Positions 40,549 through 43,522 of a stretch of 43,527 nt of DNA are shown one piece after another. The stretch is from Planctomycetaceae bacterium. Its GTDB lineage: Bacteria > Planctomycetota > Planctomycetia > Pirellulales > UBA1268. Made by a program: the position numbers and the translations under genes. The stretch lies in assembly GCA_027486095.1 (NCBI GenBank), contig JAIXPT010000440.1, positions 1-43,527 of the forward strand, given 5' to 3'. Position 1 is the stretch's first letter. The number at the start of each line of letters is the position of its first letter. The notes below the pieces were generated by a model, which was given only the letters and a program-made list of their open reading frames with translations, had not been told where the DNA came from and searched no databases.

Positions 40549-40707
40549 ATGGATGCCCACTTCAACGAGTATCTGGCGGCGGTGGCGGGGATGCAGAATC
40601 TCTACGGCGAATCCGCCTGCGATCGCGAGCCGGGTCCGTGCGGGGAGTCGCCAGACCCCCACGCCGGCGAATTGACAGCCCCGGCCCCATTGCCGATTCT
40701 TGCCTAG
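40549..40707 (+). CDS. Candidate small ORF (52 aa)
   Basis: ATG at 40549 preceded by GGAGG (ccacggagggttcaatcATG); MDAHFNEYLAAVAGMQNLYGESACDREPGPCGESPDPHAGELTAPAPLPILA; below the ORF-track length cut-off. Confidence 0.4.
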   Translation: MDAHFNEYLAAVAGMQNLYGESACDREPGPCGESPDPHAGELTAPAPLPILA

Positions 40708-40768
40708 AGACGGGGCGGGAAACACGGCGTTCGAGTTCGGTGGACTTCGCGCCGGCATCCCATCCTCC

Positions 40769-42166
40769 ATGGCAAGCACTGGTCTGAGTCTTTTGATGAG
40801 CCGCTCTTCAAGCGTTGTCGCTGCCGGCGTGCTCATGCTCGGGCTCGCGCCCTGGGCCGCCGCCATCGAGATCACGCGGACGCTCGATCCGAGCATCGAC
40901 ACCGTCGGCCAGCAGATTCTCACGGTGCAGACCTACACGAGCGGCACGACCACGGTGCTCGATCTCGGCATCTACGACACCGGGGCGGCGGTGGTCTCCT
41001 TCGCCGCCTATGCCAACGAATACTTCCCCCAGCCGCATCGCAACCCGGGCGGGGCAGGGGGCCAGGGAATCAACGGGCGGGTCGTCGGCGACGTGTCCCA
41101 GCCGGGCACGATGCTGGTAGGCGGCTTTCAGGATTTTACGATCGACGTGGATATCAACACGTTCATATTCGATGTCTCTGTGACGACGCCGCCCACTCGG
41201 GCCGTCCCCGGCATCCAGGCGTTCGTGGGCTCGCTCGACGGCAGCCCGAATCTGCCCACGCTCGCGGGCACACCCGTCCACAAGCCGAGCGCCGCCTTTC
41301 CCGGCGGCTCGGCCGCACGGGTGTCGTTTTCCGGGATCGATTTTGCCTCGTCGCTCGGGCTCACGGGGCAGCTCTTCATCCCCACGTTCGACCTCGTGGC
41401 GCCGGGGCAAACACTCGCCAAGAAAGAAGGGAGCACGCAGCCCGCGGTGATTCCGCTCGTGCCGCTCGGCCTCGATAATTACGGGAGCGAAGGCACGAAT
41501 ATCACGGTCGTGCCCAATCCCACGGTGCCGAACGTGGGCCTGGGGATGCCGGGGGTGGAGGGCGGCTCCACGCTCGTGACGGCCAGCAGCATGCTCTTCG
41601 ACACCGGCGCCCAGGTGTCGCTCATTTCGACCGCGCTCGCCTTCGGCCTCGGGCTCGACCTCGGCAATCCCGACACCACGATCTCGGTGAAGGGGGCCGC
41701 TGGCGATCCGATCGCGATCCCTGGCTTCACGCTTGGCGAGATCGTGTTGCCCGCGGCGATCGACGGGCCCGCCGCCGACGACACGCTGCGGTTTCTCGAC
41801 GTGCCGGTCTACGTCTACGACATCGGGGTGCCGGGGCTCGACGGCATCCTGGGGATGAATCTCTTCAATCAGGCCGACGAGATGCTCATCGACCTGATCA
41901 ACGGTCAGTTCGCCGTGTCGTTTTATGAAGCGCTGCCCGAAGGCTCTGGAGCCGACGGCCTGGCCAGCGTCAACGCGGCGTTCGAAGCGATGGGGATCTC
42001 GTTCCCCGTGTTTGCCGGCAGCGTCGCGCCAGCGCTCGGTCTGGGCCCGGTCGTGCCGGTGCCGGAGCCGGGCACCCTCGTCGCCCTCGCCGGCGCGCTG
42101 GCCGTGCTCGCATCGCGGCTGCCCCGAGGCCGCCGCTTTCGGCAGCTGCCAAAGCTCCCCGAGTAG
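40769..42166 (+). CDS. PEP-CTERM protein with pepsin/retropepsin-like aspartyl protease domain
   Basis: LFDTGAQVSLIS catalytic-type motif; GLDGILGMNLF; C-term VPEPGTLVALAGALAVLASRLPRGRR; last codons and stop (AAG CTC CCC GAG TAG) lie in the tRNA-derived repeat. Confidence 0.82.
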   Translation: MASTGLSLLMSRSSSVVAAGVLMLGLAPWAAAIEITRTLDPSIDTVGQQILTVQTYTSGTTTVLDLGIYDTGAAVVSFAAYANEYFPQPHRNPGGAGGQGINGRVVGDVSQPGTMLVGGFQDFTIDVDINTFIFDVSVTTPPTRAVPGIQAFVGSLDGSPNLPTLAGTPVHKPSAAFPGGSAARVSFSGIDFASSLGLTGQLFIPTFDLVAPGQTLAKKEGSTQPAVIPLVPLGLDNYGSEGTNITVVPNPTVPNVGLGMPGVEGGSTLVTASSMLFDTGAQVSLISTALAFGLGLDLGNPDTTISVKGAAGDPIAIPGFTLGEIVLPAAIDGPAADDTLRFLDVPVYVYDIGVPGLDGILGMNLFNQADEMLIDLINGQFAVSFYEALPEGSGADGLASVNAAFEAMGISFPVFAGSVAPALGLGPVVPVPEPGTLVALAGALAVLASRLPRGRRFRQLPKLPE

Positions 42167-42169
42167 GAT
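42151..42169 (+). repeat. 19-bp direct repeat, distal copy of tRNA-Asn 3' end (candidate att site)
   Basis: aaagctccccgagtaggat, identical to 43042-43060. Confidence 0.8.
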
Positions 42170-42354
42170 GCGTCACAACCGCCGTATCCTTTGTGAAAAC
42201 AGGGAAGTCGGCAGAAAAGTGACTCAAAAAACGACTCACTCGGTTCGGGTCTGGAAGCCCGCAGGAGTTCGCAGGGAACCGCACGCTCGTCCGTCGCCGT
42301 TCCCGCCAGCCGCCTGGAAAACCATCAGCGACTGGTTGGGGGGAAGCAACGAGG

Positions 42355-42744
42355 TCAGTTCCAGAGGCGGGTGACCCCGTACTGATCAAACACCGTATCA
42401 GCACTCACGATTGGAATGGTTTCAACAAAGCATTGAGCCACAAGGAGCCTGTCAAAAGGATCTCTGTGGTGAAACGGCAAAGCCGTCTGCCTTTCAGCGA
42501 ACGCCAGCGTGATGGGTGACACCGTGACGCCGAGGTCTGCCAACGCCCGCTCCACCCATTGGCGATACGGCAGAGAAAGCGAAAGTTTTTTGAGGCTTGT
42601 CTTGATGGAGAGTTCCCAGATCGTCCCGACGCTTACCGTCACTTCAATGGCGGGGTTTTCAAGAACGGCTCTGGCACTGGCACCGAGCCTACTTGGGTCG
42701 TCCAACGCCCAGATCAAGGTGTGCGCATCCAGAAGATGCCTCAT
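42355..42744 (-). CDS. PIN-domain toxin (VapC-like)
   Basis: MRHLLDAHTLIWALDDPSRLGASARAVLENP..SVGTIWELSIKTSLKKL...FHHRDPFDRLLVAQC..PIVSADTVFDQYGV. Confidence 0.9.
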   Translation of the reverse strand: MRHLLDAHTLIWALDDPSRLGASARAVLENPAIEVTVSVGTIWELSIKTSLKKLSLSLPYRQWVERALADLGVTVSPITLAFAERQTALPFHHRDPFDRLLVAQCFVETIPIVSADTVFDQYGVTRLWN

Positions 42745-42977
42745 TCCATGTAATCCTTGAAGTCCTCCAGCGGAGCATCAAAGTCGGGAGCCATGTAGAG
42801 GACGGTTCCCTTCATCGTTCCCAGTTGGCGGTGAGCCTTCTTGGGTATCGGTGGTGTCGGAACGATCCGAGCCACGGGCTGGTCGTTCTCTGTGATCACG
42901 ACCTCATCCCCAGGCGTGAGGCGATGGATGATGTCGGCCAGGCCAGACTGGGCTTCTTTGAGTGTCACTGTGGTCAT
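42741..42977 (-). CDS. Antitoxin, Phd/YefM family
   Basis: MTTVTLKEAQSGLADIIHRLTPGDEVVITENDQPVARIVP; 4-bp overlap with the PIN toxin start. Confidence 0.88.
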   Translation of the reverse strand: MTTVTLKEAQSGLADIIHRLTPGDEVVITENDQPVARIVPTPPIPKKAHRQLGTMKGTVLYMAPDFDAPLEDFKDYME

Positions 42978-43041
42978 GGCAGAGTCTCCCAACCGGAGTC
43001 TACCAGCCACACGCCCCCTTTTGGCCCCACCGCTTCGCAGA

Positions 43042-43060
43042 AAAGCTCCCCGAGTAGGAT
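43042..43060 (+). repeat. 19-bp direct repeat, tRNA-Asn 3'-end copy (candidate att site)
   Basis: aaagctccccgagtaggat; covers the tRNA acceptor 3' strand and part of the T stem. Confidence 0.8.
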
Positions 43061-43117
43061 TCGAACCTACAACCTAGCGGTTAACAGCCGCTCGCTCTAC
43101 CGTTGAGCTATCGGGGA
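43046..43117 (-). tRNA. tRNA-Asn (anticodon GTT)
   Basis: Reverse complement TCCCCGATAGCTCAACGGTAGAGCGAGCGGCTGTTAACCGCTAGGTTGTAGGTTCGAATCCTACTCGGGGAG folds as a cloverleaf: 7-bp acceptor, anticodon loop CTGTTAA, T loop TTCGAAT; no encoded CCA. Confidence 0.96.
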
Positions 43118-43162: not shown

Positions 43163-43522
43163 TCAGCCTCCGCCCGGCGGCCGCTGCTTCTCGAGCAGCA
43201 CGCTGTTGCCCCGGGCGTTGTATTCGATCCGGGTCATGAACGACCGCATCAGCATCACGCCCCGGCCACTGGGCACCTCGAGCCGCTCGTCGAGCGTGCA
43301 GTCGGGTACGGCCTGCGGGTCGAATCCCGGGCCGGCATCGGTGATTTCGATCCGCGCGAGCGCCTCCGACACCGCGCACGACACCCGCACCGTCTTGGCG
43401 GGGTCGAGCTTGTTGCCATGCACGATCGCATTGACGATCGCCTCTTCCACGGCGAGATGAATGCCGAAGATGTCGGTCGGCTCCCAGCCATGGTGGCCGA
43501 GCTGCTCGAGCAGTTCTTCCAT
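43163..43522 (-). CDS. ATP-binding protein, anti-sigma factor/RsbW-like HATPase; N-terminus may extend beyond the window
   Basis: HLAVEEAIVNAIVHGNKLDPAKTVRVSCAVSEALARIEITDAGPGFDPQAVPD...SGRGVMLMRSFMTRIEYNARGNSVLLEK. Confidence 0.88.
   Translation of the reverse strand: MEELLEQLGHHGWEPTDIFGIHLAVEEAIVNAIVHGNKLDPAKTVRVSCAVSEALARIEITDAGPGFDPQAVPDCTLDERLEVPSGRGVMLMRSFMTRIEYNARGNSVLLEKQRPPGGG

Follow-up and report, generated by a model that had tools for sequence, protein, structure and literature searches.

How did a toxin-antitoxin pair come to lie between the 3' end of a tRNA gene and an exact copy of that end, and what could have placed it there if the interval itself carries no integrase? This question is raised by a 43,527-nt stretch of a planctomycete draft genome (the window, meaning the whole of this stretch), in which the 19-mer AAAGCTCCCCGAGTAGGAT is present at 42151-42169 and again at 43042-43060.

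The tRNA-Asn repeat and its cargo

A first-pass annotation, made from the sequence alone, had described a direct repeat of the tRNA-Asn 3' end bracketing a toxin-antitoxin (TA) pair. The repeat is indeed exact and both copies lie on one strand; because tRNA-Asn(gtt) is predicted at 43045-43117 on the minus strand, the right copy is the 3' end of that tRNA (Table 1). Chance matches to the 19-mer are not expected in the window, even with up to three mismatches, and the metagenome-assembled genome (MAG) from which the window derives (3.77 Mb, 77% complete) contains only these two when searched with up to two mismatches. The distal boundary is thus marked by a direct repeat of the tRNA 3' end, the hallmark of a tRNA-integrated element of the tyrosine-integrase type, and the starts of the 15-mer cores (GCTCCCCGAGTAGGA) are 891 bp apart. 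The distal copy contains the final codons and the stop (TAG) of a PEP-CTERM gene, which raised the possibility that the 19-mer is native to this gene; the homologue in G006 (83% protein identity) nevertheless has another 3' end, in which the repeat is absent. At the other boundary, the HATPase_c_2 gene adjoining tRNA-Asn is conserved across the planctomycete family.

Between the repeats, the annotated PIN toxin and Phd/YefM antitoxin were recovered by profile searches. The toxin domain scores above the cut-off; the antitoxin falls slightly below it for Phd_YefM (PF02604, E 2.1e-6), above it for DUF2281 and below it for NCBIfam TA_VapB (E 4.7e-12). With toxin and antitoxin domains in neighboring genes, this is a predicted type II pair, in which an antitoxin start at the ATG at about 42977 is likelier than the GTG. 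A scan of the cassette found no promoters or terminators. The interval had also been described as holding, apart from this pair, only about 190 bp of non-coding DNA; the pair stands, but the stretch that follows the distal repeat is not featureless, as it bears two arm-like motifs (at 42219-42238 and 42260-42283).

Table 1. Features of the tRNA-Asn locus, with positions in the window.
Feature	Position	Strand	Basis or remark
PEP-CTERM aspartyl-protease-like gene, left flank	40700-42166	+	PF13650
Distal attachment repeat, 15-mer core GCTCCCCGAGTAGGA at 42154-42168	42151-42169	+	exact tRNA-Asn 3'-end copy
Whole cassette, 891 bp	42154-43044	.	core-to-core; Phd-family antitoxin and PIN toxin
Paired arm-like motif GTGACTCAAAAAACGACTCA, 50 nt right of core	42219-42238	+	sole match in the window, even with two mismatches
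CGCA repeats, ~10-bp spacing (CGCAGGAGTTCGCAGGGAACCGCA)	42260-42283	+	follow the paired motif
PIN-domain toxin (VapC-like), 129 aa	42355-42744	-	PF01850, E 1.4e-10
Phd/YefM-VapB-like antitoxin, 89 aa from GTG	42741-43010	-	PF02604 Phd_YefM; DUF2281
tRNA-proximal attachment repeat, 15-mer core at 43045-43059	43042-43060	+	exact 19-mer match
tRNA-Asn(gtt), attachment site	43045-43117	-	ARAGORN; Rfam RF00005, 73.1 bits; intact tRNA by sequence
HATPase_c_2 protein, right flank	43163-43522	-	PF13581, E 9.2e-24

Recurrence across the planctomycete family

The locus had been presented as a single case, a view that must be abandoned given that tRNA-Asn repeats occur family-wide. The sequence AGCTCCCCGAGTAGGA is found in 53 of 74 genomes of the family, many of the single copies being the tRNA itself. 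Arrays at tRNA-Asn comprise seven repeats plus the tRNA in G080 and four repeats, tRNA included, in G001; in G081, eight repeats (two with one mismatch) lie on one contig that ends short of the tRNA. A single copy is present at tRNA-Asn in G003, G005, G013 and G030, which we call single-repeat sites, their virgin state being unproven because left-arm-like sequence persists beside the tRNA in several of them. Different cassettes, marked by repeats, are therefore found recurrently at one tRNA in related genomes, which is the pattern of an additive flexible genomic island. This recurrence already refutes the trivial reading of the repeat as a chance match, a segmental duplication or an assembly artefact, to which we give practically no weight: the window does come from a draft MAG, and MAG assembly can misplace repeats, yet no chance match is expected and the structure is present in many independent assemblies.

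We catalogued 40 inter-repeat units of about 0.8-6 kb, none of which (0/40, window unit included) contains an integrase gene, as an autonomous element should. The cargo of the small units is strikingly uniform: 25 of the 26 units below 1.6 kb carry a TA-type gene or pair, either PIN/Phd, MNT/HEPN, HicA/HicB, VapB-like/PIN, a lone PIN or DUF4160/DUF2442, a pair named DhiTA in Dickeya (PMC8198452). Larger units carry other cargo, for example a sulfatase-like gene (by eye, from the sequence). Two units (L059 2558-4034 and L170 1789-3678) are composites of two or three TA pairs without an inner repeat, as if the inner attachment site had been lost.

The PIN/Phd unit itself, at 886-891 bp, is present in G000 (the genome of the window), G002, G060, G081 and G088, which represent three genera; in G001 the PIN/Phd pair is part of a 1477-bp fusion with an MNT/HEPN unit. 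From end to end, the window cassette is 90.0% identical to the unit of G002, a member of the same genus, and 89.0% identical to that of G088, which belongs to another genus. Homology between the three begins at the core and the left flanks are unrelated, the compared units sharing 13-23 of the 60 bp left of the core, about the chance level. Cassettes are also far more similar than the host DNA adjacent to them: 96.6% (over 887 bp) versus 72.9% between G002 and G088, 99.5% versus 74.3% between G019 and G080, 94.8% versus 71.0% between G014 and G080, and, for the window and G088, 89.0% versus 77.6% in a 339-bp piece of host DNA. Because the G002 and G088 cassettes resemble one another more than either resembles that of the window, the PIN/Phd unit has spread horizontally. 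The proposal of an element integrated at the tRNA 3' end is thus borne out by recurrent arrays, by precise units that are shared horizontally and by genomes in which this tRNA has just one repeat; relatives with this TA pair but lacking a second repeat, which were named beforehand as evidence against it, were not seen.

Two origins had initially been left side by side: a decayed island or a small element mobilized in trans. In the former, a large integrase-bearing element at tRNA-Asn would have been deleted here down to its TA pair, in keeping with the lack of an integrase in the unit, with larger units whose repeats are as much as about 6 kb apart and with the integrase remnants found at the same tRNA. 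The 886-891-bp unit nevertheless recurs with both its ends in five genomes of three genera, and in differing array contexts. Independent decay is disfavored because it would not result in one size and identical ends; in-situ decay is largely refuted by this recurrence and we consider it very unlikely, so that of the two origins mobilization in trans is the one retained.

Arm-like motifs and a linked tyrosine integrase

A paired motif, G[CT]GAC[GT][CT]A-N5-CGAC[GT][CT]A, follows 42 of the 46 distal repeats (up to two mismatches allowed; the 46 are what is left of 48 after removal of L068 8961 and L076 6508, tRNA-side copies at a variant tRNA). Its start is exactly 50 nt from the core in 37 of these 42 cases, and it is found at none of 24 tRNA-side repeats and at 121 of 5000 random positions. 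Of about 46 distal repeats, 27 are followed by CGCA triplets with a spacing of about 10 bp, compared with 66 of 5000 random positions. To the left of the core, TGCG or TGCC is found at preferred phases, either -10, -20, -30 and -40 or -26, -36 and -46; the PIN/Phd cassette is without the phased TGCG repeats that mark the left end of most other cassettes, which speaks against the model proposed below. The layout of the paired motif and CGCA repeats is that of integrase arm sites, and we treat them as putative arms. In genus g3, the core is kept and the arms are GGTC-like repeats at +43, +53 and +63 (L180, L181, L184 and L185; G033 and G090), which suggests that arm specificity changed along with the integrase. 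We considered whether left and right arm classes are strictly matched inside each unit, but do not claim it: the association of GACGTA with GGCA and TGCC is suggestive, but there are exceptions.

The arm pattern has also been found away from tRNA-Asn. In G081 (contig C15, L222 619-1611), a slightly diverged second copy of the tRNA-fMet 3' end lies about 0.88 kb off with the same arm motif, and a short antitoxin-like protein is encoded between the two copies, together with a reading frame that looks MazF/PemK-like by eye, with no Pfam hit. Almost all named records in which the arm pattern occurs are planctomycete MAGs, and several of them bear lake names; three are labelled otherwise, for example as Kuenenia or Zetaproteobacteria, the Zetaproteobacteria match being without the core.

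Which enzyme could act on these sites? In G031, the C-terminus of a tyrosine integrase is encoded about 0.5 kb left of tRNA-Asn, the gene being cut by the contig end; a homologue is present at full length at the same place in G081 (384 aa, L172 7254-8408), another lies about 0.5 kb from a tRNA-Asn repeat in G060, again cut by the contig end, and G080 retains a remnant. Pfam searches with this integrase detect catalytic and SAM-like domains. In a blind search for arm pairs across 300 genomes of the order, 20 loci were examined outside the family, of which 10 carry this integrase; for 8 of these 10, the retrieved stretch also includes a tRNA gene (Arg, Leu, Glu, Ser or Ala). Because this search co-locates the two, the arm motif is tied to the integrase family independently of the cassettes. 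Counting against this link in the present case, an integrase of this arm-linked family was not detected in the window's own MAG, although that MAG is only 77% complete. Some relatives of the integrase (L240 2908-4170; L242 527-1789) show the arm motif in an apparently coding position, as NPTQNPTQ near the C-terminus.

Known arm-binding domains consist of three strands and a helix. A structure model of the integrase, built from a shallow set of relatives, predicts a three-stranded sheet and a helix at the N-terminus (pLDDT about 80) and is poor elsewhere (58.7 overall); as modelled, the N-terminus is arranged as in the known arm-binding domains. A fold search with this weak model returned XerA, an integron integrase and lambda integrase as best matches; searching solved structures with the integrase sequence yielded no useful match.

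The cassettes could in principle belong to an integron and be moved by the integron integrase of the same genome. TIGR02249 integrases are present in G000 (contig C92, 443 bits; L189 1047-2180, minus strand) and also in G001, G009, G013 and G019; several relatives with arrays are among the carriers. However, in a simple box search for attC sites (RYYYAAC ... GTTRRRY), not one of 36 units had a box pair enclosing the core; as such pairs occur in 1.2% of random stretches, the test has little power. Moreover, it is a tRNA end that serves as the core, and the integrase family marked by the arm motif is another one. We therefore regard integron-driven movement as exceedingly improbable.

The main alternative to integration in trans is accretion of the CIME type, in which the units would keep working ends and move mainly in cis with a neighboring integrase-bearing island. 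The window unit has both attachment sites and no integration or transfer genes, as expected of a CIME, and integrase-bearing elements are present at the same tRNA in some genomes. This is not unprecedented: the same explanation was given for Dehalococcoides ssrA islands without an integration module (PMC3146451). Against it, the PIN/Phd cassette stands alone between the tRNA and the first repeat in G000 and G002 and in mid-array in G081, and the G019 cassette is found in mid-array in G080, all of which fits movement of single units. Movement in cis is thus a serious contender, if an unlikely one.

A viral vehicle for the cassettes was also considered but could not be shown: the strict arm pattern has no match in the viral contigs, which yielded a single, distant integrase homologue. 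The core does occur in 11 viral contigs, in several as tRNA-Asn or its end. In one 4.5-kb viral contig (IMGVR_UViG_3300034092_005028; L271 4416-4536), the core is accompanied by a TGCG-type, cassette-like left arm, after which come unrelated DNA and a gene resembling serine recombinases; the tRNA-Asn end may also be used by another recombinase.

Proposed integration in trans and known cassette systems

We propose that the 891-bp unit is probably a non-autonomous integrative cassette that was integrated in trans at tRNA-Asn. The cassette would be made of an attachment core, arm sites and the TA pair, followed by the core that it has in common with the tRNA. An enzyme supplied by another element, from the planctomycete family of tyrosine integrases that target tRNA genes, would bind the arm sites on the excised circle and recombine the core with the tRNA-Asn 3' end, which would leave the tRNA intact. 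With each new insertion beside the tRNA, older cassettes would be displaced outward and an integron-like array would grow, which the TA pairs might stabilize by penalizing cassette loss. Neither a circle nor an empty-site read nor a product of excision was seen. Repeated integration of circles at the tRNA by an enzyme acting in trans would account for arrays, discrete units and arm motifs as well as for the absent integrase. It also makes several questions testable: how additive tRNA islands grow from integrase-less units, why TA pairs build up in cassette arrays and what minimal DNA an integrase needs in trans. For uncultured planctomycetes, it provides a search rule: a tRNA end followed, at a distance of 50 nt, by a GAC[GT][CT]A pair.

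Integrons and Acinetobacter dif modules are the best-known cases of TA-bearing cassette capture; in the present system, a tRNA 3' end, present in every bacterium, serves as recombination site, and the arm motifs tie the cassette to a definable integrase family. Like the additive flexible genomic islands at tRNA genes of Methylopumilus (fGI-2, PMC10872708), Actinomarinales (PMC7771536) and Alteromonas (tRNA-targeted cassettes, PMC4119200), the system adds cassettes of variable content at a tRNA, with tRNA-end repeats also in Methylopumilus and Actinomarinales, and Methylopumilus islands can be as small as 330 bp (PMC10872708); the differences are that small units here are almost all TA pairs, that the arm motifs lie at a fixed distance and that these can be linked to an integrase family. 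Acinetobacter dif (pdif) modules (PMC6449649) are likewise small, recombinase-free and site-flanked, some with TA genes, and depend on an enzyme from elsewhere, but theirs are XerC/XerD sites, mainly on plasmids, whereas the flanking core here is the tRNA-Asn 3' end on the chromosome, with arm motifs. Tandem ssrA islands and CIMEs of Dehalococcoides (PMC3146451) are also arranged in tandem, delimited by copies of an RNA-gene 3' end, and some lack an integration module; they differ by their serine recombinase and dehalogenase cargo. Integron arrays and CALINs (PMC11389934; Alteromonas, PMC4119200) share arrays of small cassettes, frequent TA genes and a possibly external integrase, but attC-like boxes were not found here and entry is at a tRNA gene instead of attI. 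As far as they are outlined in PMC10872708, tycheposons are also tRNA-associated and carry cargo, but they span 4-200 kb and have a tyrosine recombinase, in contrast to units of about 0.8-6 kb (891 bp in the window) with no integrase. We found no planctomycete description of such a cassette system in the open-licence literature; additive islands, CIMEs and dif modules are precedents, and it is the combination of TA mini-units with arm sites at fixed positions and with an associated integrase family that we did not find described. Integrons and dif modules may have a third counterpart as collectors of cassettes, a proposal for which we see even chances: TA mini-cassettes with their own arms, of several arm classes, gathered at more than one planctomycete tRNA by integrases from elsewhere.
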